Of a DNA stretch of 64,000 nucleotides, positions 1-18,755 are shown piece by piece (the stretch's first letter is position 1; every line of letters starts with the position of its first letter). The notes under the pieces were generated by a model, which searched no databases, was not told the origin of the DNA, and was given only the letters and a program-made list of their open reading frames with translations. Origin of the DNA: Gammaproteobacteria bacterium (GTDB lineage Bacteria; Pseudomonadota; Gammaproteobacteria; Ga0077536). Position numbers and translations under genes: made by a program. The stretch covers positions 1 to 64,000 of the forward strand of contig JACPPA010000024.1 of the NCBI GenBank assembly GCA_016191285.1, read 5' to 3'.

Positions 1-112
1 ATCGCCCGCCGATCTACCGTTTTGATGACGCCCGCACCGCAAGCTAAACCGCCGCTTGCCGCAGCCGTGCGCCGGTCGAACCTATCCGCTAGACCGCGCC
101 CGTACATCTAAA

Positions 113-685
113 ATGCCGCGCTTATACAACCCCGCTAACAAGCGCTTTCCGGATGTTCGTCTCGATATCGTGCTGACTGATCAAGTGGTCGATTTGATTG
201 GCGAGGGATGTGAACTCGGCATCCGGCTGGGCAATCTTGCCGCGAGCACCTTGATGGCACGCCCGATCGGATCTATCGAACAAATCCTGGTGGCTTCTTC
301 GGAATATTTAATCCGGCGCGGTGTTCCCGAGTCGCCCGTCGAACTCGCCGAACATCCGTGCATCGTCTACGGCGGCGGCAGCCGTTGGACGCGCTGGGAG
401 TTTGAATCAGAAAGTGGCCGCCACGTGGTGGATGTTGGCGGCCCAGCGCATATCAATGACCCGGAAGCGATGTACGAACTGGTGTGCGCGCATCAGGGCA
501 TCGCGCTTATTCCGGACTGGGTCATCGGGGACGATATCAAAACCGGCCGCGTGCAATGGCTGCTGCAAGATTACTATCCGCTCGCGCAACGCGTGAGCGT
601 GGTGTATCCACAAACGCGTTTTTTATCGCTGCGCGCGCGGAGTTTTATTGATTTTATTTTGGCCGAACAGCGGCAGACTAGATGA
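113..685 (+). pseudogene. LysR-family regulator, C-terminal effector-binding fragment
   Basis: The readable protein (about 190 residues) matches the second half of a LysR-type regulator. It has the substrate-binding domain segment FPDVRLDIVLTD followed by VDLIGEGCELGIRLG, and ends in the usual TxFLSLRARSFIDFILAE helix. The winged helix-turn-helix that should fill the first 60-90 residues is absent: upstream of the ATG at 113 the frame continues only as unrelated sequence, and a whole LysR protein is about 300 residues. It is therefore almost certainly a remnant that cannot bind DNA. The window edge is only 112 bases away, but no helix-turn-helix is visible there in any frame. It is tail-to-tail with another truncated gene (678-878). 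Confidence 0.75.
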
Positions 686-878
686 ATAATGCAGGAGTGA
701 CTAAATTGGCGTTGAGGTCGACTATTCCACAAGGAGTTTGGTACGGGACATCCATTTCCATGGCCAATTCCCTGAAGTATTCGATTGTCGATTCTTCTAT
801 CCGAATGGTGATCGGCTTTTTGAGCTTCTTCGCATAAGGATTACGCTTCGCCTTCGAAAAATCGTAGTGCTCTTTCAT
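678..878 (-). pseudogene. Truncated BrnA/CopG-like antitoxin
   Basis: The first 48 residues look like a ribbon-helix-helix antitoxin of the BrnA type: MKEHYDFSKAKRNPYAKKLK, then ITIRIEESTIEYFRELAMEMDVPYQT. Family members continue after PYQ(T/S) with a short LINLYLRDC helix. Here the frame instead runs into unrelated residues (PCGIVDLNAN...) and stops, so the C-terminal end is lost. No toxin gene lies beside it; the upstream neighbour is the GST cassette. It sits where the integron cassette array breaks down, next to the LysR fragment. The N-terminal half is intact, so a shortened DNA-binding peptide could still be made, but loss of function is more likely. Confidence 0.7.
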
Positions 879-879
879 C

Positions 880-920
880 GTTTTCTTGACGCATGAAGCG
901 TCCGCTCCAACGGCTTAGAC
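880..920 (-). other. Truncated attC site after the GST cassette
   Basis: Read on the minus strand it starts with GTCTAAG (914-920, one mismatch to GTCTAAC), containing the GST stop codon. GAGCGGACGC follows, the same inner arm type as in the other sites, then a small GACGC/GCGTC hairpin. No GTTRRRY core or matching outer arm is visible before the antitoxin start at 878. The 3' half appears lost. Confidence 0.5.
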
Positions 921-1595
921 CGCATTCGAGGGCTCTCTAAAGCGCGGTGGTATGTCGTCTGCGAATGGATAGAAATGAAAGTATGGCCTCGACTCCTCAA
1001 CCACTCGACGAACAGAGGGCCGATCCATTAGCCGGTCGAAGTAGTCCCGGAGATGTCCGAGTGCTGTCGGCAGCGGCTGAAGCGTATTGGCATAAAAGAG
1101 AGCCGGCGCCGCCGCGCAATCGGCAAGGCTGAAATCTTCATGTGCGGCCCATGCTCGCGAAGCAACCTGGCGGTCGATAACACAATACGTCGCCTCTAAC
1201 AGAGCGCGAGGGCCGGACATATCCGCGTGCGTTTGATGGAGCCGATCTCCAACAATCTGTTGCATCGGCGTCTGAACGTAGTTATCAAAGATTCGATCCC
1301 ATAATCGAACCTCGATAGCGCTGTCCCGGTCAGTCGGGATCAGTGGCTTCTTTCCCGGATAGTGGTGGTCGAGATAATCGATAATAGCCGAGGACTCAGG
1401 GAGACTACGGTTGCGCTCAGAGTTGTGGAGCACGGGAAACTTACACAGTGGCCAATGAGATCGAAGTATTTCTCTCTGCTCTTCGTCACTCAGATCAATA
1501 ATCTGGGCATTGAAGGGCGTTCCGGCCTCGTACAGTGCAATAAGCACCTTGTGACAATAGGACGACAGAGGGTGGTAGTAGAGCGTCAAGGACAT
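915..1595 (-). CDS. Glutathione S-transferase family protein
   Basis: 226 residues, the normal length of a bacterial cytosolic GST. The N-terminal thioredoxin-like domain begins LTLYYHPLSSYCHKVLIALY, with the SSYCHK turn where the glutathione-activating Ser or Cys sits. A cis-Pro appears in KFPVLH, and PESSAIIDYLD forms the usual glutathione gamma-glutamyl contact. The helical C-terminal domain contains FSLADCAAAPALFY, the conserved N-capping box. The enzyme would conjugate glutathione to electrophiles in the cytoplasm; its substrate cannot be read from sequence. It is the last intact cassette of the array, with its stop inside the attC core and about 55 bases between the preceding attC and its start. 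Detoxifying enzymes are common cassette cargo. Confidence 0.9.
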   Translation of the reverse strand: MSLTLYYHPLSSYCHKVLIALYEAGTPFNAQIIDLSDEEQREILRSHWPLCKFPVLHNSERNRSLPESSAIIDYLDHHYPGKKPLIPTDRDSAIEVRLWDRIFDNYVQTPMQQIVGDRLHQTHADMSGPRALLEATYCVIDRQVASRAWAAHEDFSLADCAAAPALFYANTLQPLPTALGHLRDYFDRLMDRPSVRRVVEESRPYFHFYPFADDIPPRFREPSNAV

Positions 1596-1653
1596 GATGG
1601 AGATTCTTTGGACATTTGCGGCGTTACGGGTTGCGTTGTCGATGAATAATGCG

Positions 1654-1747
1654 GTCTACCGCTGCCCCGTGACCGGCGCCGGCCATGACAGTTATCGCGC
1701 AGCGCCACCGCGTTTTACCCGGCGTCCGGTCGACAGGCTGGTTATAC
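1654..1747 (-). other. attC site between BrnTA and GST cassettes
   Basis: On the minus strand it runs from GTATAAC (1741-1747) to GGTAGAC (1654-1660). The arms GACCGGACGCCGG and CCGGCGCCGGTC pair with one unpaired A, a typical attC extrahelical base. Both outer cores deviate at one position from RYYYAAC and GTTRRRY. The BrnA-like frame reads into this site. Confidence 0.7.
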
Positions 1748-1949
1748 GTGATGCTTGCTCTGCAATGCTAAGTAAACCGTGCAACGCTTCATTAACTGCC
1801 TTTGATGTGGGAAATGCTTTCGCGATATCCGGCTCAAGTAGTGCTACCGAAGTGCCTTCACGTGCTTCGACATAGAATTTGCCGCGTTCGAGTTTCGTAA
1901 AGTCAGATCGCTTGTACTCTTTACGCATTTCATCCTTAGGCTTCTTCAT
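1692..1949 (-). CDS. BrnA-like antitoxin partner of BrnT
   Basis: 85 residues beginning MKKPKDEMRKEYKRSDF, followed by RGKFYVEAREGTSVALLEPD and a helix with FPTSKAVNEALHGLL. This pattern is seen in small proteins encoded just downstream of BrnT-type toxins, which act as DNA-binding antitoxin and autoregulator. It overlaps the end of the toxin gene by 14 bases, so the two are translationally coupled. Its last 19 residues (after EQASR) are encoded by the attC site itself; whether this tail belongs to the protein or is a read-through product is unclear. Assignment as antitoxin rests mainly on position and length. Confidence 0.7.
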   Translation of the reverse strand: MKKPKDEMRKEYKRSDFTKLERGKFYVEAREGTSVALLEPDIAKAFPTSKAVNEALHGLLSIAEQASRITSLSTGRRVKRGGAAR

Positions 1950-2208
1950 AAATTTTTCGCTCGCTGCGCGTTACTGGTCGCGCGGTAATGATTCGAATCT
2001 TCCCGGGGCGGTAAGTGTGACATACAGATAGAAGGTGCCCCAAGCTTGAATAACCAAAGGTGATGTACCGGTCTTCTTCATCGGAATGATCGGGGTCCGG
2101 ACCTGACAGCGCCAGAGGGTCAAGAAATACTGTTGACGCCTCGTCAAAACTGACACCGTGTTTTTCAAGATTTATCGCGGCCTTTACGCCGTCCCACTCA
2201 TACTCCAT
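1936..2208 (-). CDS. brnT: BrnT-family ribonuclease toxin
   Basis: A close match to the BrnT pattern: MEYEWDGVKAAINLEKHGVS at the start, then FDEASTVFLDPLA, DPDHSDEEDRYITFGYSS and a C-terminal RIITARPVTRSERKIYEE. The family has a RelE-like fold, cuts RNA and is neutralised by BrnA. The start is placed at the internal Met at 2208 because family members begin ME(Y/F)(E/D)WD; an upstream in-frame start at 2229 would add seven unrelated residues. It forms a two-gene cassette with the overlapping antitoxin gene. Such pairs are common in integrons and may stabilise the array. Confidence 0.88.
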   Translation of the reverse strand: MEYEWDGVKAAINLEKHGVSFDEASTVFLDPLALSGPDPDHSDEEDRYITFGYSSLGHLLSVCHTYRPGKIRIITARPVTRSERKIYEEA

Positions 2209-2233
2209 GGCGTGCGGCTCCGTTTCCAATCAG

Positions 2234-2300
2234 GTTTAACGCGCCGATGAGCGGCACCGAAGTGCGCAGCACGGAGGCGTCGGCTCCATTGGCTTGATAC
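2234..2300 (-). other. attC site between membrane-protein and BrnTA cassettes
   Basis: On the minus strand the 3' core is GTTAAAC (2234-2240) and the inner arms are GAGCCGACGCC and GGTGCCGCTC, again with an extra A in one arm. The 5' core is degenerate (GTATCAAGC near 2292-2300). At about 67 bases it is the shortest full site of the array. Confidence 0.65.
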
Positions 2301-2311
2301 TCATCTCCGCT

Positions 2312-2728
2312 TTAAGTTCCTCCCTTAGATTGAAGCAGATATCCGAAAAGAACAGCAAGTAGGGAAATAGGCGTGAACACAACAATAGGGGCTATCACCG
2401 CCCATATGGCGGCGGTGTCATTGTCGTTATTCATAAAGAACCCGATATCGATCGCCGATATGCATACCGAAAAGAAGATCAAAACCTCCGGTGGCATGCT
2501 GGTTCTAGGCCGTAAACCAGCGATACCGATAATGGCATACGGCAGAATTGACAAAGCGATAACGAAGATCCAGAGGCCCAAGAAATTGCCCAAGCTGTTA
2601 TGTGTCCAACTTTCCAGCAGAGATCTCCACCCGCTCGCCTGAGATCCGACAAAAACCACTACGTGTGTGATTAATCCGACTATCAAAGCCGAAATCAATG
2701 CTCGCTTTTCTGTACGGAACTCTTCCAT
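2312..2728 (-). CDS. Cassette-encoded small membrane protein of unknown function
   Basis: 138 residues with four likely membrane helices: ISALIVGLITHVVVFVG, FLGLWIFVIALSILPYAI, VLIFFSVCISAIDIGFF and IAPIVVFTPISLLAVLFGYL. It has no signal peptide or catalytic motif that I recognise. Its ATG lies five bases after the upstream attC core, and its stop lies just before the next attC, so it is a complete one-gene cassette. Unannotatable membrane proteins are typical cassette cargo; no function is proposed. Confidence 0.75.
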   Translation of the reverse strand: MEEFRTEKRALISALIVGLITHVVVFVGSQASGWRSLLESWTHNSLGNFLGLWIFVIALSILPYAIIGIAGLRPRTSMPPEVLIFFSVCISAIDIGFFMNNDNDTAAIWAVIAPIVVFTPISLLAVLFGYLLQSKGGT

Positions 2729-2732
2729 TACC

Positions 2733-2825
2733 GCCTAACGCTTCGCATGAGCTGCGCCGGCCACGAACACAACCGCGTAGCGCCAGGAAGCACGCCCCGG
2801 CGTCAGCTCGATGCGATTGTTAGCT
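2733..2825 (-). other. attC site after the Nmad2-like cassette
   Basis: This is the clearest site of the array. On the minus strand the 5' core AGCTAAC (2819-2825) contains the TAA stop of the upstream gene, and the 3' core is GTTAGGC (2733-2739). Inner arms GAGCTGACGCC and GGCGCAGCTC are perfectly complementary except for one extra A. Length 93 bases. Confidence 0.85.
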
Positions 2826-3401
2826 GTCCATGTCGGGATTGTCATTTGGCAACCCAGCTAACCCTTCGTCATATTCGCTTTGGACCCAAGCAACAAACTG
2901 TTTAGCCAAATCGCAGTCATGGTTTACTCTCGCACCTCTGCCGCCGAAGAGAGGGGCGAACTCGGAAGGCGCCGATTCGGCATTCTTACCTCGATACCAA
3001 AAGCGTTGTCCGACGAACACCCGCGCGTACCTCGTGTCTTGCGTCTTGAGCCGCTCGTCCAAGTGAAATCGATTGCGATGCTGAATCCAGGTGCCATCAG
3101 GCGCTTTGCTGTAGAAGTTGTCACCGCATCTTTCCTTCCATCCTCCTCGTAAATTGGGCTTCTTCGCAGCGAATCGTGAGTCAAGGAAATAATCATCTAG
3201 ACTCATGACTTCCGCTACCTCCATAGCGTAAACCATCCTATAGCCCCTAGCTTTCGTCAAAAACCCAGCAATCCAATCTCCGGCTCGGAGTCGCGTGCCT
3301 TGATGGTTTGGTGTGCACACGGCTAACGTACAACATCCCCAAAATGGGTTCGGAGCTAGGCCAGTGTCCTCACGAATCACATATGTGCACAGCGTATTCA
3401 T
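2820..3401 (-). CDS. Nmad2-like (nucleotide modification associated domain 2) protein
   Basis: 193 residues. The N-terminal stretch TYVIREDTGLAPNPFWGCCT, followed by LAVCTPNHQGTRLRAGDWIAG and MVYAMEVAEVMSLDDYF, follows the pattern I know from Nmad2 domains (S/TYVVR.D.G.APNPF...C.LA.CKP, GDWI, .VYAM.V...). Those proteins are found near enzymes that hypermodify DNA bases in phages; their biochemical role is not established. Two Cys and several conserved aromatics are kept. The C-terminal half (RFAAKKPN... FGGRGARVNHDCD) is also typical in composition. It is the first cassette, with its stop inside the attC core and its ATG four bases after a cassette boundary core. The family call is from memory of the motif and needs a profile search. 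Confidence 0.65.
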   Translation of the reverse strand: MNTLCTYVIREDTGLAPNPFWGCCTLAVCTPNHQGTRLRAGDWIAGFLTKARGYRMVYAMEVAEVMSLDDYFLDSRFAAKKPNLRGGWKERCGDNFYSKAPDGTWIQHRNRFHLDERLKTQDTRYARVFVGQRFWYRGKNAESAPSEFAPLFGGRGARVNHDCDLAKQFVAWVQSEYDEGLAGLPNDNPDMDS

Positions 3402-3412
3402 GGACAGCTAAC
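3399..3412. repeat. Cassette boundary core, right half of a 14-bp inverted repeat
   Basis: CATGGACAGCTAAC here is the exact reverse complement of GTTAGCTGTCCATG at 2819-2832. The two copies bracket the Nmad2-like gene: one covers its start codon and upstream core, the other its last codons and attC core. On the minus strand GTTAGCT is the upstream cassette junction (attI- or attC-derived). No attC palindrome is visible further upstream. Confidence 0.75.
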
Positions 3413-3769
3413 TAGAAATAGTTTTCCGAAAAGACGGAATTGCTTTTCATCATTTAGGACAGAATAATCACCCTGTCGATTTGATTCAAACGGTGGCGGG
3501 CGGCGTTACCCAGCTCAAGGTACTAAATCGAAAGGATCAGACCTATTGCGCGGCGAGTTCGATTTTGATATCTCGAATGCATTCCCTCGGCACTGTCTCA
3601 AAAGGGTGGGTTTTCGCCGGTGATTCGCGGCAACTTTTCAAGTTTGCACCGTGATTGATGCCGACACAGAATCCTCCCGCCATTGCGCGCTTCCGGCCAT
3701 TCGATCATCGCGCCCGATTTGCCGTGCCACGGCCAGAGGAGGTAACGCTCTAAACTTACGTCCACTAAT
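3413..3769. other. Intergenic region upstream of the cassette array
   Basis: No convincing gene. A 55-codon open frame on the minus strand (3598-3765, GTG start) would encode LERYLLWPWHGKSGAMIEWP and more, which could be a coding remnant. It has no clear ribosome binding site and no family I recognise. There is no integrase and no attI that I can identify. A promoter for the cassettes could lie in the AT-rich part near 3415-3480, but no good -35/-10 pair stands out. Confidence 0.4.
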
Positions 3770-5419
3770 TCAATGCATGATTTGTGTAGCGTCGTTAAGT
3801 CTGTTCTCCGGGCCGCGATAGCGCGCCAGAATCATCATCGGGGGTCCCTGTGGTTGGGTTGGGTCGAGCGGCTCGGCATGTAAGATTTCGAGATCGGAAG
3901 TGACGCGGTCGTGCGGATAAAAAAGAGGATAGTCGATGGCAGGGAAAGCCGTTCCCCGCAACATCAGCACATAAGGACATTCCGCGAGCGCCGCACGGAG
4001 CGTTGGCAGCGTGGCCCGAATTCCCGGCGGACGCCGACTTTTTCGTCGCGCTTGGAGCATCACCACCTCTGGCATGATCGAAGTCACGCAGGCTTGCGGT
4101 GGCACGTACTCATCGAGCTTTGCCATCGCATCGAGTACCCGCACCGCCACCTCGGTCATTCGGCGCGCTTCGCTTTGGCTGTCGTATCGATACCATTGAC
4201 TGATGCGCGTGAATTCCCGTTCCTGCGCGGTATCGGCATGCGCAATCTGAAGCACGATGAGCAGGGTGCTTGGCAGCACAATGCAAATCAAAACCGCGGC
4301 CGTGGCGGCCGCGGCGAGTGGTGCTACACGACGCTGGCCGCAGTACTCGAGCAAAAGCGCCGCACCCCAGCAGGCATAGGCCGCGAAGAATGGCAGAACT
4401 ATCAGCAGGAAGCGCGCGAAGTCATTCGGGTAAGGCCACAACAGCATGACGAGCAGATACAGCGCCAAGTACAACGCATCGACGGCGCCAGTGCGTAAGC
4501 GCGCCACCCAGGCGATGAGGGCAAGCGCCGTAAGTGCGCTCACAACCGCCGCGCTATACGCGCTGCCGAGTAGGTCAAAACAACGCACGCCGTGATACGC
4601 AAGCGCCCGCACGTTGATCGGGAGCTGTTCGATAATATCGTGCACGGCCGAAACGAATCCGTCGTCGAGCAATGATCCGACGTAGCCGCCGCTCCAGCCG
4701 AACCGCCACTTACACGCCGCCCAGATGAGCGGAGGTAACGTTGCGAGCAGCACCACCGGGTAGGCCTTACGCGCTCCGGTTTGCCACCACCAATTGCCGA
4801 GGAAGGCCGCCACGGCGAATAGCCCCACCGTGCGTGTGACGGCCGCAAGGCCGAGTAGTCCCGCCGCTAGGTACCAGTGTCGACGCTCGATCTTGGCTGG
4901 CGCGATCAGCGCCAAGGCACTCATCGATAAGGCGAGGTACAAGGGCTCGCTGAACAAGCCCATGACGGTGAAAAGCGCGATGGGCGTCAAGCTCAGCGTC
5001 ACCGCGGCCGCGGCCGCGGCCGGCGGCCCGCCGCCCGCGCGACGAACCCACGTCCAAGTCGCAGTGACGGCAATCGCCAAACACAAGGCGTCGAATAGAT
5101 AATCCAGGTGCGGCGTCGCACTGCCACCGCCGACCAGCGCCAGACTAAGCGGATACAACGGCGGAAATGGATAATGAGCAAACAAGAATTCGCCGAAGCC
5201 AAAGTGGTGGCTGCGATAGAGCGATAGCATGTCTGCCATCAATAGATAGATCGCACCATCCGAATTGATGCCCGCGAAACTCGACTTGTTACCGCAAACA
5301 ATGAATATCCCAAAAGCCAGCGCGCCGGCCATCGCGGCCGGCAGCCAACGTGTCGATGACAGAGGGTGACGCCTCACGAAAATTTGTACGAGTCTTGAAG
5401 TGCAAGAAGGATTTTGCAC
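3770..5419 (-). CDS. Polytopic membrane glycosyltransferase-like protein (GT-C/ArnT type)
   Basis: About 549 residues with some ten to twelve hydrophobic segments, starting from LPAAMAGALAFGIFIVCG. The first outer loop carries INSDGAIYLLMAD, the position where GT-C enzymes (ArnT, PMT) have a catalytic acidic residue. The second loop reads HYPFPPLYPLSLALVGG. The last 150 residues form a soluble C-terminal part (QARRKSRRPPGIRAT..., LMLRGTAFPA). Such proteins move a sugar from a polyprenyl-phosphate donor to a lipid, protein or glycan on the periplasmic side; the acceptor is unknown. The start is a GTG with only a weak ribosome binding site, and an ATG 29 codons downstream is a possible alternative. 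No other envelope glycan gene is adjacent. Confidence 0.7.
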   Translation of the reverse strand: MQNPSCTSRLVQIFVRRHPLSSTRWLPAAMAGALAFGIFIVCGNKSSFAGINSDGAIYLLMADMLSLYRSHHFGFGEFLFAHYPFPPLYPLSLALVGGGSATPHLDYLFDALCLAIAVTATWTWVRRAGGGPPAAAAAAVTLSLTPIALFTVMGLFSEPLYLALSMSALALIAPAKIERRHWYLAAGLLGLAAVTRTVGLFAVAAFLGNWWWQTGARKAYPVVLLATLPPLIWAACKWRFGWSGGYVGSLLDDGFVSAVHDIIEQLPINVRALAYHGVRCFDLLGSAYSAAVVSALTALALIAWVARLRTGAVDALYLALYLLVMLLWPYPNDFARFLLIVLPFFAAYACWGAALLLEYCGQRRVAPLAAAATAAVLICIVLPSTLLIVLQIAHADTAQEREFTRISQWYRYDSQSEARRMTEVAVRVLDAMAKLDEYVPPQACVTSIMPEVVMLQARRKSRRPPGIRATLPTLRAALAECPYVLMLRGTAFPAIDYPLFYPHDRVTSDLEILHAEPLDPTQPQGPPMMILARYRGPENRLNDATQIMH

Positions 5420-5549
5420 CGTAACCCGTTCAAGGGCGGTCGTCTATTAGAAGCAGCTATCTCAAAAATGATTTCTGGTGAATAGGGTTTCCGAACACCG
5501 CCAAGTAATCTAGGATTCAGGTCTCGTGCCAAGTTAGAAAGCGAAGGCA

Positions 5550-6047
5550 ATGGCGGACGTGCTGAATTTCACGACCTTAAGCGCAGTTGAGCTGCAGCAT
5601 CACGTCGAGTACTTGCTCGCGCGTTATGTGCATTGCATTGATGACGATGAGTTGGAGCGCTTACCGGATTTTTTTACCGACGATTGCGTGTACCAGGTCA
5701 TCGCGCGTGAAAACGCGGATCGTAATTTACCGCTGGCGGCCATTTACTGTGCGTCGAAGGGTATGTTGTGCGATCGCATTACCGCCTTACGCCATGCCAA
5801 TATCTACGAGCGTCATCGTTATCGGCATGTGGTGAGTAGCGTACTGGTGACCGGTATAACCACGTCGAGCGCGCACGTTAAGAGCAATTATGTGGTGTAT
5901 CGCACGCGCACCAATGGCGTCTCCGAACTCTTCAACGCGGGCACCTATCTCGATACCATCGTCGTCGACGGCCGCTTGCTGTTCAAAGAGAAGCGCGCCA
6001 TCTTTGATACCAATCGCATCGATACTTTGTTAGTGACTCCGATCTGA
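5550..6047 (+). CDS. Aromatic-ring-hydroxylating dioxygenase, beta (small) subunit
   Basis: 165 residues with the cystatin-like beta-subunit fold: a helix LQHHVEYLLARYVHCIDDDE, then LPDFFTDDCVYQV, the conserved RHANIYERHRYRH segment and a C-terminal sheet ending KEKRAIFDTNRIDTLLVTPI. Closest in character to the small subunits of anthranilate, salicylate 5- and related hydroxylases. It supports the alpha3beta3 oligomer and has no metal centre of its own. The GCGAAGG ahead of the ATG is a good ribosome binding site. It is the first gene of a tight operon with the alpha subunit (9-base gap) and a ferredoxin. Confidence 0.88.
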   Translation: MADVLNFTTLSAVELQHHVEYLLARYVHCIDDDELERLPDFFTDDCVYQVIARENADRNLPLAAIYCASKGMLCDRITALRHANIYERHRYRHVVSSVLVTGITTSSAHVKSNYVVYRTRTNGVSELFNAGTYLDTIVVDGRLLFKEKRAIFDTNRIDTLLVTPI

Positions 6048-6056
6048 GGACCGTCG

Positions 6057-7331
6057 ATGGCTGCCATTCCTGCCGACCTTGCGCCGACAAACACTCCCAC
6101 GTGGCCAACGAGCGTCGATGGCTGTCGGGTTCCGTTCGAGGTTTTTACGTCCCCTGCCTATTACGCACGCGAGCAAGCAGCGATCTTCCAAGGTCCGGTG
6201 TGGTGTTTCGTCGGCCTCGAGTGCGAGCTCCCCACGCCGGGCGATTTCAAGTCCACGTTCATCGGCGATACGCCGGTCATCGTCACCCGCGATGCCGACG
6301 GCGGCGTGAATGTGCTGCAGAATCGCTGCGCGCATCGCGGCGCGTTGGTGTGCCGTGAACCGCGCGGTAATGCCAAGCATCTGGAATGCGTTTATCACCA
6401 ATGGGCTTACGACCTGCGCGGTAAGTTGCAGAGCGTGCCGTTCCGGCGCGGCATTCGCGGCAACGGCGGCATGCCAGAATGCTTCAACCTTGCCGATCAC
6501 GGGCTCGATGCGTTGCGGGTCGAAACTTTAAACGGTCTGGTGTTCGCGAGCTTCTCGACGACGGTCGAACCGCTGCGCGACTACTTAGGGTCACTGGTCG
6601 TGCAGAGTATCGAACGTCTGTTTAATCGTCCGATCACGGTGCTTGGCGATCAACGGCAATACGTGCACGGCAATTGGAAACTCTATGCGGAGAACACACG
6701 CGATCCCTATCACGCGAGTCTTTTGCACTTGTTTCATAACACGTTCGGGCTATATCGCTCATCGCAAACGGGGGCCTGCAAGATGGACACCAGCCATCGG
6801 CACACGCTGCTTTACGCCAAGGCGGGAACCTCGGATGCGAAGGCCGATAGTGCGGTATACAAAGACAGTCGCAGCCTCAATACGGCGTTTACGTTGCAAG
6901 ATCCGTCGCTTCTCGCCGGCCGCCAAGAGTTCGACGATGGCGTGACGTTGGTGATCCTCTCGGTATTTCCTAATCTGGTCGTGCAACAGATCGCGAATAC
7001 GCTCGCCGTGCGACACATCGTGCCGCAAGGGGCTGGCGCCTTTGAATTGGTGTGGACGCATTTCGGGTACGCCGACGATGATGCCGACATGCAGCGCATT
7101 CGGCTTAAACAATCGAATCTCATCGGACCGGCGGGGTTTGTCGCGATGGAAGACGGTGAAGCCGTGGAGATTGTGCAGCGCGCGGTGCTCCGCGCGACCG
7201 GCAAACATTCGTATATCGCGATGGGCGGTGGCCGCGCCGAAGATGCGGAACATCTGGTAACCGAATCCGCCATCGTCGGATTTTGGGAAAGCTATCGCAC
7301 ATTGCTCGGGATCGTCGCGCTTCAATCCTAG
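6057..7331 (+). CDS. Rieske dioxygenase alpha (large) subunit, salicylate/anthranilate type
   Basis: 424 residues. The Rieske centre is complete: CAHRG around residue 88, then CVYHQWAYDLRG about 20 residues later (CxH...CxxH). The catalytic domain has ENTRDPYHASLLHLFHNTFG, providing the Asp bridge and two His ligands of the mononuclear iron; the third acidic ligand is expected near the C-terminal EDGEAVE. The segment GMPECFNLADHGLDALRVET resembles salicylate 5-hydroxylase (NagG) and anthranilate dioxygenase (AntA) large subunits. It would hydroxylate an aromatic acid in the cytoplasm using electrons from the downstream ferredoxin. The exact substrate cannot be decided. No reductase gene is nearby. 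Confidence 0.9.
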   Translation: MAAIPADLAPTNTPTWPTSVDGCRVPFEVFTSPAYYAREQAAIFQGPVWCFVGLECELPTPGDFKSTFIGDTPVIVTRDADGGVNVLQNRCAHRGALVCREPRGNAKHLECVYHQWAYDLRGKLQSVPFRRGIRGNGGMPECFNLADHGLDALRVETLNGLVFASFSTTVEPLRDYLGSLVVQSIERLFNRPITVLGDQRQYVHGNWKLYAENTRDPYHASLLHLFHNTFGLYRSSQTGACKMDTSHRHTLLYAKAGTSDAKADSAVYKDSRSLNTAFTLQDPSLLAGRQEFDDGVTLVILSVFPNLVVQQIANTLAVRHIVPQGAGAFELVWTHFGYADDDADMQRIRLKQSNLIGPAGFVAMEDGEAVEIVQRAVLRATGKHSYIAMGGGRAEDAEHLVTESAIVGFWESYRTLLGIVALQS

Positions 7332-7344
7332 AACTGCCTGCGGT

Positions 7345-7665
7345 ATGCCGCTCATCAAATTATGCGCAATCGCCGAACTCGACCGTGGCTTTCCAGTTCG
7401 CGTTGAAGCCGATGGCTTTCCGCCGCTCGCGGTTTATGCCTACGCTGCGACGTACTATGTGACTGACGATACCTGCACCCATGGTCAGGCCAGTCTCTGC
7501 GACGGCTACCAAGAGGGGGACGTGATCGAATGCCCCTTCCACGGCGGCCAGTTCGATATCAAGACCGGCGCCGCGCTGGCCTATCCGTGCACCGAGGCGA
7601 TCAGAAGTTATCCGGCCGTGATCAACGACGGCTGGGTGTGCATCGCAGCGGAGAATCAGGCCTGA
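7345..7665 (+). CDS. Rieske [2Fe-2S] ferredoxin of the dioxygenase
   Basis: 106 residues, the size of NagAb/BphF-type ferredoxins. The cluster motif is CTHGQASLCDGYQEGD...ECPFHGGQFD, that is CxH and CxxH with 17 residues between. It ends with the usual YPAVINDGWVCI strand. It shuttles single electrons from a flavin reductase to the alpha subunit encoded 13 bases upstream. A matching ferredoxin reductase is not in the window. Confidence 0.9.
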   Translation: MPLIKLCAIAELDRGFPVRVEADGFPPLAVYAYAATYYVTDDTCTHGQASLCDGYQEGDVIECPFHGGQFDIKTGAALAYPCTEAIRSYPAVINDGWVCIAAENQA

Positions 7666-7667
7666 AT

Positions 7668-7976
7668 TTAACGCCGCGCGGGGGGCGTGTCCTTAAGCGT
7701 GGCGACGAAAATAGTGTGCTGCGCGAGATCGACTGGGCGATGCTTCACGTCGGTACGTGCGGGATATTGTCCAAGATAATTATCGCCTTTTAAGTTGCGC
7801 GCTGGTCGAATGGGGCGTGGACTAAAGCCCCCGCCGCAGTTCGGGCATACATTGCCCAACAAGGTTTCTGCACACACGCGACAAAAGGTGCACTCAAACG
7901 AGCAGATCATCGCTTCTGTCGAGGCAGGCGGCAGTGGCCTGTTGCAGTGTTCGCAAGTCGGCCGGATTTCAAGCAT
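7668..7976 (-). CDS. DUF1272 family zinc-ribbon-like protein
   Basis: 102 residues. The first 50 carry eight Cys in CEHC, CSFECTFCRVCA and CPNCGGGF groups, which would bind two metal ions; this is the DUF1272 pattern (MLEIRPTCEHC, then LPP...A.ICSFECTFC). The tail is basic and proline-rich. Family function is unknown. A strong ribosome binding site (GAGGAG, seven bases before the ATG) supports the start. It is convergent with the dioxygenase operon and ends two bases from it, so it is not part of that operon. Confidence 0.85.
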   Translation of the reverse strand: MLEIRPTCEHCNRPLPPASTEAMICSFECTFCRVCAETLLGNVCPNCGGGFSPRPIRPARNLKGDNYLGQYPARTDVKHRPVDLAQHTIFVATLKDTPPARR

Positions 7977-8035
7977 ACCAATAATCTCCTCCCTCGCGGT
8001 CTTGCAATGGACCTTAATATATCGGCGCGCTCCCG

Positions 8036-18564: not shown

Positions 18565-18755
18565 GGTGTCCTCCACAATACCGCTGTGGGTCGTAATCTT
18601 GAACCAAAGGCTCAAGATGGGGACTTCTCGGAGCGAATCAGGCTTCCCGCAATAACGCGGGCATGCACAACATCACTGCCAGATCGGTCCCAGTGGTTAC
18701 CAAATTATCGGCTCAAGGATATCGAGCCACTGGCATGCACTGCAGAGAACACCAA
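18565..18755 (-). ncRNA. ssrS: 6S RNA
   Basis: About 190 nt on the minus strand, just downstream of zapA as in other gammaproteobacteria. The ends pair (GGTGTTCTC with GAGGACACC). Short stretches match E. coli 6S: CTTGAGCCGATAATTT on the 5' side of the central bubble, TCCGAGAAG, and the CTTGAGCC...GGTTCAAG stem-loop on the 3' side. The RNA mimics an open promoter and binds sigma-70 RNA polymerase in stationary phase. Ends are estimated from the terminal stem. Confidence 0.88.

Follow-up and report, generated by a model that had tools for sequence, protein, structure and literature searches.

How does a row of gene cassettes come to lie in a chromosome without an integrase beside it? The question is raised by the first kilobases of the window, by which we mean the whole stretch of 64,000 nucleotides analysed here (contig C45, positions 1 to 64,000, of a draft genome of 5.1 Mb assembled in 60 contigs; the window begins at the contig end). 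A sequence-only reading had described, at 880-3412, four same-strand cassettes separated by three good attC sites and one truncated site, and labelled them a CALIN, that is, a cluster of attC sites lacking an integron-integrase. CALINs have been proposed to be degraded integrons (IntegronFinder 2.0, PMC9024848). Their origins are mostly open: a lost integrase, insertion at a stray site, or breaks in an assembly. Here, the evidence argues that the locus is probably a sedentary chromosomal integron remnant, from which intI was deleted while attI and the cassettes stayed and the far end decayed.

We tested the attC sites with a held-out covariance model, trained on 12 attC sites from other contigs and genomes and none from the window; its E-values are rough. 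In the training set, 85.7% of the stem cells were paired (31-38% in slid versions), and the covariation score was reached by none of 500 shuffles. On the 64-kb window the model found three attC sites only, all on the minus strand, and the runner-up position scored 11.3 bits. They correspond to the three claimed positions: attC 1 (2733-2825; 58.4 bits, E 4e-13), attC 2 (2234-2302, read earlier as 2234-2300; 24.0 bits, E 6e-4) and attC 3 (1654-1747; 32.1 bits, E 4e-6). With the filters off, on a short stretch, the two long sites scored lower because only their inner arms were aligned, and the same three positions ranked first. An independent rule-based scan of 350 kb gave 22 matches at a score of at least 38 and none in its reversed-sequence control. 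Two of the window sites were above 38 (43 and 41), while that at 2234-2298 scored 36, a level at which control matches occur too. A first, loose attC scan showed no improvement over its control and was superseded. An Rfam search of the window gave no match to an attC family; its single hit was a 6S RNA gene at 18566-18751 (RF00013, 83.7 bits).

The sites have the imperfect R''-L''-L'-R' palindrome with an extrahelical base expected of attC, weakly so in attC 2. AttC 1 is intact and its bottom-strand DNA fold is favourable (z -3.1); the fold of attC 2 on its own is no better than that of shuffles (z -0.17). Two junctions look damaged, because R' between cassettes 3 and 4, in attC 3, reads GGTAGAC where GTTAGAC is expected (GTT to GGT), and R'' of attC 2 is degenerate (TATCAAG). 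The unpaired A said to mark the inner arms is present throughout, but the common arm GAGCNGACGC is not, as that of 1654-1747 is GACCGGACGC.

All open reading frames of the four cassettes lie on the minus strand, as described, and the array is read in the direction from 3412 to 880. Cassette 1 (2739-3411) carries an Nmad2 gene (2820-3401; PF18753, E 1e-45), and cassette 2 (2240-2738) a 138-aa membrane-like ORF (2312-2728) without a family match. Cassette 3 (1660-2239; PF04365, E 1.4e-26) encodes a BrnT toxin (1936-2229) and a BrnA-like antitoxin (1692-1949), and cassette 4 (888-1659) a glutathione S-transferase-like protein (915-1595; PF13417, E 6e-14). PADLOC assigned none of the cassette genes to a defence family. 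Stop codons had been placed inside the 5' cores. This is correct for Nmad2 (AGCTAAC) and the transferase gene (GTCTAAG) but not for the other two: the 138-aa ORF stops about 10 nt ahead of its attC, and brnA about 54 nt inside its attC. The C-terminus of the BrnA-like antitoxin (about 18 codons, 1692-1747) is encoded within attC 3, so that this recombination site is also coding sequence. A paralogous BrnT/BrnA pair on contig C9 (66% and 79% identity) has the same C-terminal tail, and the C-terminus of its antitoxin is likewise encoded inside an attC (L142, about 2270-2325).

Several features support the cassette nature of these segments. Cassette 1 is intact. Its start is an exact 13-nt inverted match to its R'', as expected if the two had been joined in a single attC when the cassette was circular. 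There is an exact 11-nt match of this kind in cassette 4 and a partial one (9/14) in cassette 3; the same comparison for cassette 2 gave no match. The GC content of the array is 0.525, that of the window 0.60, and the lowest sampled 2.5-kb stretch from 4 kb onward has 0.563. The Nmad2 gene is sparsely distributed: among 86 related genomes it has a single other carrier, which is outside the family, and the searched genomes of the family gave no further one. In Marinobacter alexandrii, Nmad2 lies between attC sites (L094, 3897-8978), where an attC and a group II intron reverse transcriptase come after its cassette.

At its far end the array is decayed. The fourth site, claimed to be truncated, is indeed the 5' half of an attC on the minus strand (about 888-917), which keeps R'' and L'' and then stops, having lost L' and R'; 20 of 21 nt of this half are identical to an attC on contig C56. 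Beyond it lie a 3'-truncated CopG/BrnA-like antitoxin fragment (678-878, minus strand; PF12441/PF14384, E 3e-4, below cut-off) and a 5'-truncated LysR substrate-binding fragment (56-685, plus strand; PF03466, E 6.6e-36), whose helix-turn-helix part is missing.

What stands at the other end? Directly upstream of cassette 1, at 3410-3433 on the minus strand, is the sequence CTTTTCGGAAAACTATTTCTAGTT followed by AGC, with the crossover between G3412 and T3411. We read this site, from its sequence and position only, as a putative attI, because the motif lies beside intI elsewhere and attI regions elsewhere share its core shape. The genome and its relatives were searched for the motif with up to 3 mismatches and a reversed-pattern control. 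It occurs five times in this genome, on C45, C41 and C58 and, in two weaker copies, on C21; the control gave none for that genome. Matches with 2-3 mismatches in the other genomes G009, G015 and G021 lay inside ordinary genes and were dropped. The two C21 sites (L145, 3639-3664 and 5203-5228) are 1.56 kb apart in the same orientation, with cassette-like ORFs after each. A generalised motif, CTTTTNGGANNNCTAYTTNNAGTTNG, was found with at most one mismatch in 7 of 369 genomes of the class. The control, too, gave a few matches over the whole set, so that single matches need context. In two genomes the context is a complete one, the 26-nt motif lying 120-150 bp from a divergent intI (G057 and G370:C7). 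In G367 and G208 it is beside a truncated intI, and in G184 an intI stub lies 830 bp away. The core shape, CTACT then AGTTAG, is also that of the attI regions of C36, G030, G056 and G047.

The motif is not all that is shared within the genome. The leaders on C45 (3410-3590, minus strand), C58 and C41 have about 160-180 bp in common beyond it. With the motif left out, the window leader aligned to those of C58 and C41 with z scores of 11.5 and 14.4 against dinucleotide shuffles (62% and 57% identity); the third pair gave 27.0 (72%). The C41 and C58 heads that share this leader (L014, 1540-1565; L013, 1394-1417) also lack intI. A search of the window leader for remains of intI and for likeness to the C36 and C40 leaders found none. 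A possible cassette promoter, TTGAAT-17-TATTCT, lies at 3489-3461 on the minus strand; it agrees with only 8 of 12 consensus positions, and a scan did not list it.

These observations bear on the idea that a distant integrase put the cassettes at a non-classical chromosomal site, attG, and that there was never an integron here. Insertion at attG is known (Loot 2024, as cited in PMC12444791) and would explain the missing intI. However, the insertion point coincides with the attI, a 26-nt motif that is beside intI elsewhere, and its leader is homologous to those of two other arrays; a GWT-type site without attI is not what we find. We therefore rejected attG insertion, which we regard as extremely improbable. 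Since cassette 1 joins attI, and in other gammaproteobacteria the motif has an intact or decayed intI next to it, the array is the remnant of an integron platform, as opposed to cassettes dropped at a random site.

The reported absence of intI was upheld, as an HMM search over 1-8000 found none. With its attC sites close together and no integron-integrase nearby, the array is a CALIN by definition. The label leaves the picture incomplete, as the attI had been missed: of a complete integron, the locus has the attI heading the array and lacks the adjacent divergent intI. Could a complete integron have been split or misjoined in the draft assembly? The contig end does coincide with the start of the window, and the ends of several contigs interrupt arrays. 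Yet the attI is 3.4 kb from that end, and the side on which intI is expected is well inside the contig; as 71 kb of contig continue there, the absence of intI is not a contig break. The same intI-less head also occurs inside two other contigs. An assembly artefact is thus highly unlikely.

Looking genome-wide for intI and further cassettes, as the sequence-only reading had advised, we found both. TIGR02249 matched intI on C36 and C40 only. The C36 gene is intact (461 bits, cut-off 265); its attI is adjoined by a long inverted repeat and its array runs off the contig end (L009, 1-1726). The C40 gene is frameshifted and broken into frames (C40:275190-275980, minus strand; L010, 7191-7981), and this second integron has at least six attC sites and another BrnT/BrnA pair (L010, 8867-12310). 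C56 has another attI type at its head and possibly a 5' stub of intI, suggested by position and likeness to C40; the HMM score of the stub alone is not significant. The held-out model found 23 attC sites (E at most 0.01) on a dozen contigs of this genome; of five other genomes of the genus, two had 7 and 3, and three had none. For every attC of the window there is a close relative in some other array of this genome (identity 0.81, 0.77 and 0.83); the best matches outside it reach 0.73, 0.62 and 0.84, the last from a relative in the genus. As these attC types are common to other arrays of the genome or genus, the suggestion that the cassettes were gathered from different sources is not supported.

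Two further possibilities were weighed. The arrays might be satellites, with lasting intI-less attI heads that spread by leader duplication and that the C36 integrase still fills and rearranges in trans. There are three homologous intI-less heads (C45, C58, C41) and two weaker ones on C21, an intact intI on C36, and attC types and paralogous cassettes common to several loci; moreover, attI is conserved at 81-88%, compared to 57-72% for the rest of the leader, although some of the copies had themselves been located with the motif. Against this, the C36 attI sequence differs from that of the window outside the core, damage affects R'' of attC 2 and R' of attC 3 in the window, the far end of the array is truncated, and heads of this kind decay in other genomes too. 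We consider satellite arrays unlikely, and likewise a multi-locus integron, in which dispersed intI-less attI sites, each heading its own array, would be supplied with cassettes in trans by one distant IntI.

We return to the integron that lost its intI. An IntI integrase would have inserted the cassettes successively at attI 3410-3433 (attI x attC, G^TT). In complete relatives, intI is found about 120-150 bp past attI and reads away from it; here it would later have been deleted, and a further deletion would have cut the distal end, taking away half of the final attC together with portions of the CopG/BrnA and LysR genes. The remainder would be a fixed array of cassettes, decayed in part, whose expression might start from a promoter in the leader. 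Erosion of intI in the same genome (broken on C40, possibly a 5' stub on C56) supports such a loss. However, HMM searches beside the C45, C58 and C41 attI heads detected no intI stub, unlike C40 and G184, and a single intI-less ancestor that was copied would explain the nearly identical end points of the three leaders better than three independent deletions. The ancestral state of the locus is a presumed one: in relatives of genus level at the closest, neither the glycosyltransferase nor the dioxygenase neighbourhood was syntenic. A comparable pair occurs in another family: on G370:C5 (L107; L148, 887-1416) an attI-headed array lacking intI still has its attI and about 50 nt with homology to the intI start, and adjoins a group II intron reverse transcriptase; the version on G370:C7 includes intI, and its attI is nearly identical.

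With intI gone, the array cannot rearrange alone, and single cassettes would move only if the C36 IntI acts in trans. The description as a small mobile island is not supported for the locus as a whole. According to the literature, a functional IntI is able to mobilise CALIN cassettes in trans (PMC12444791), and if the heads are still used in this way, one integrase would serve several arrays. A recognisable attI heading an intI-less array settles the origin of a CALIN for one locus. With the CTTTTNGGANNNCTAYTTNNAGTTNG motif, CALINs of other gammaproteobacteria could be sorted too; current programs do this for class 1 only. Indeed, attI is poorly described outside that class and IntegronFinder seeks none there (PMC9024848), so that the window attI would be missed.

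How does the locus compare with known systems? Like other CALINs, it has no neighbouring intI and fewer cassettes than a full integron, with three attC sites and one truncated; it differs in keeping an identifiable attI and leader. In Xanthomonas, CALINs and decayed ilvD integrons (PMC12444791) likewise show an intI inactivated or deleted while cassettes stay, with more CALINs elsewhere, but the platform there is at one conserved locus, whereas here at least three homologous attI heads lie at different loci. We found no description in the open-access papers searched of several homologous intI-less attI heads in one genome. Among chromosomal integrons, about a third of the intI genes surveyed are pseudogenes, and more than one integrase per genome is common (Nemergut 2008, PMC2426708). 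The present genome resembles these in its decayed intI and its more than one integrase; in contrast to integrons with an intI pseudogene, here intI is entirely gone beside three attI heads.
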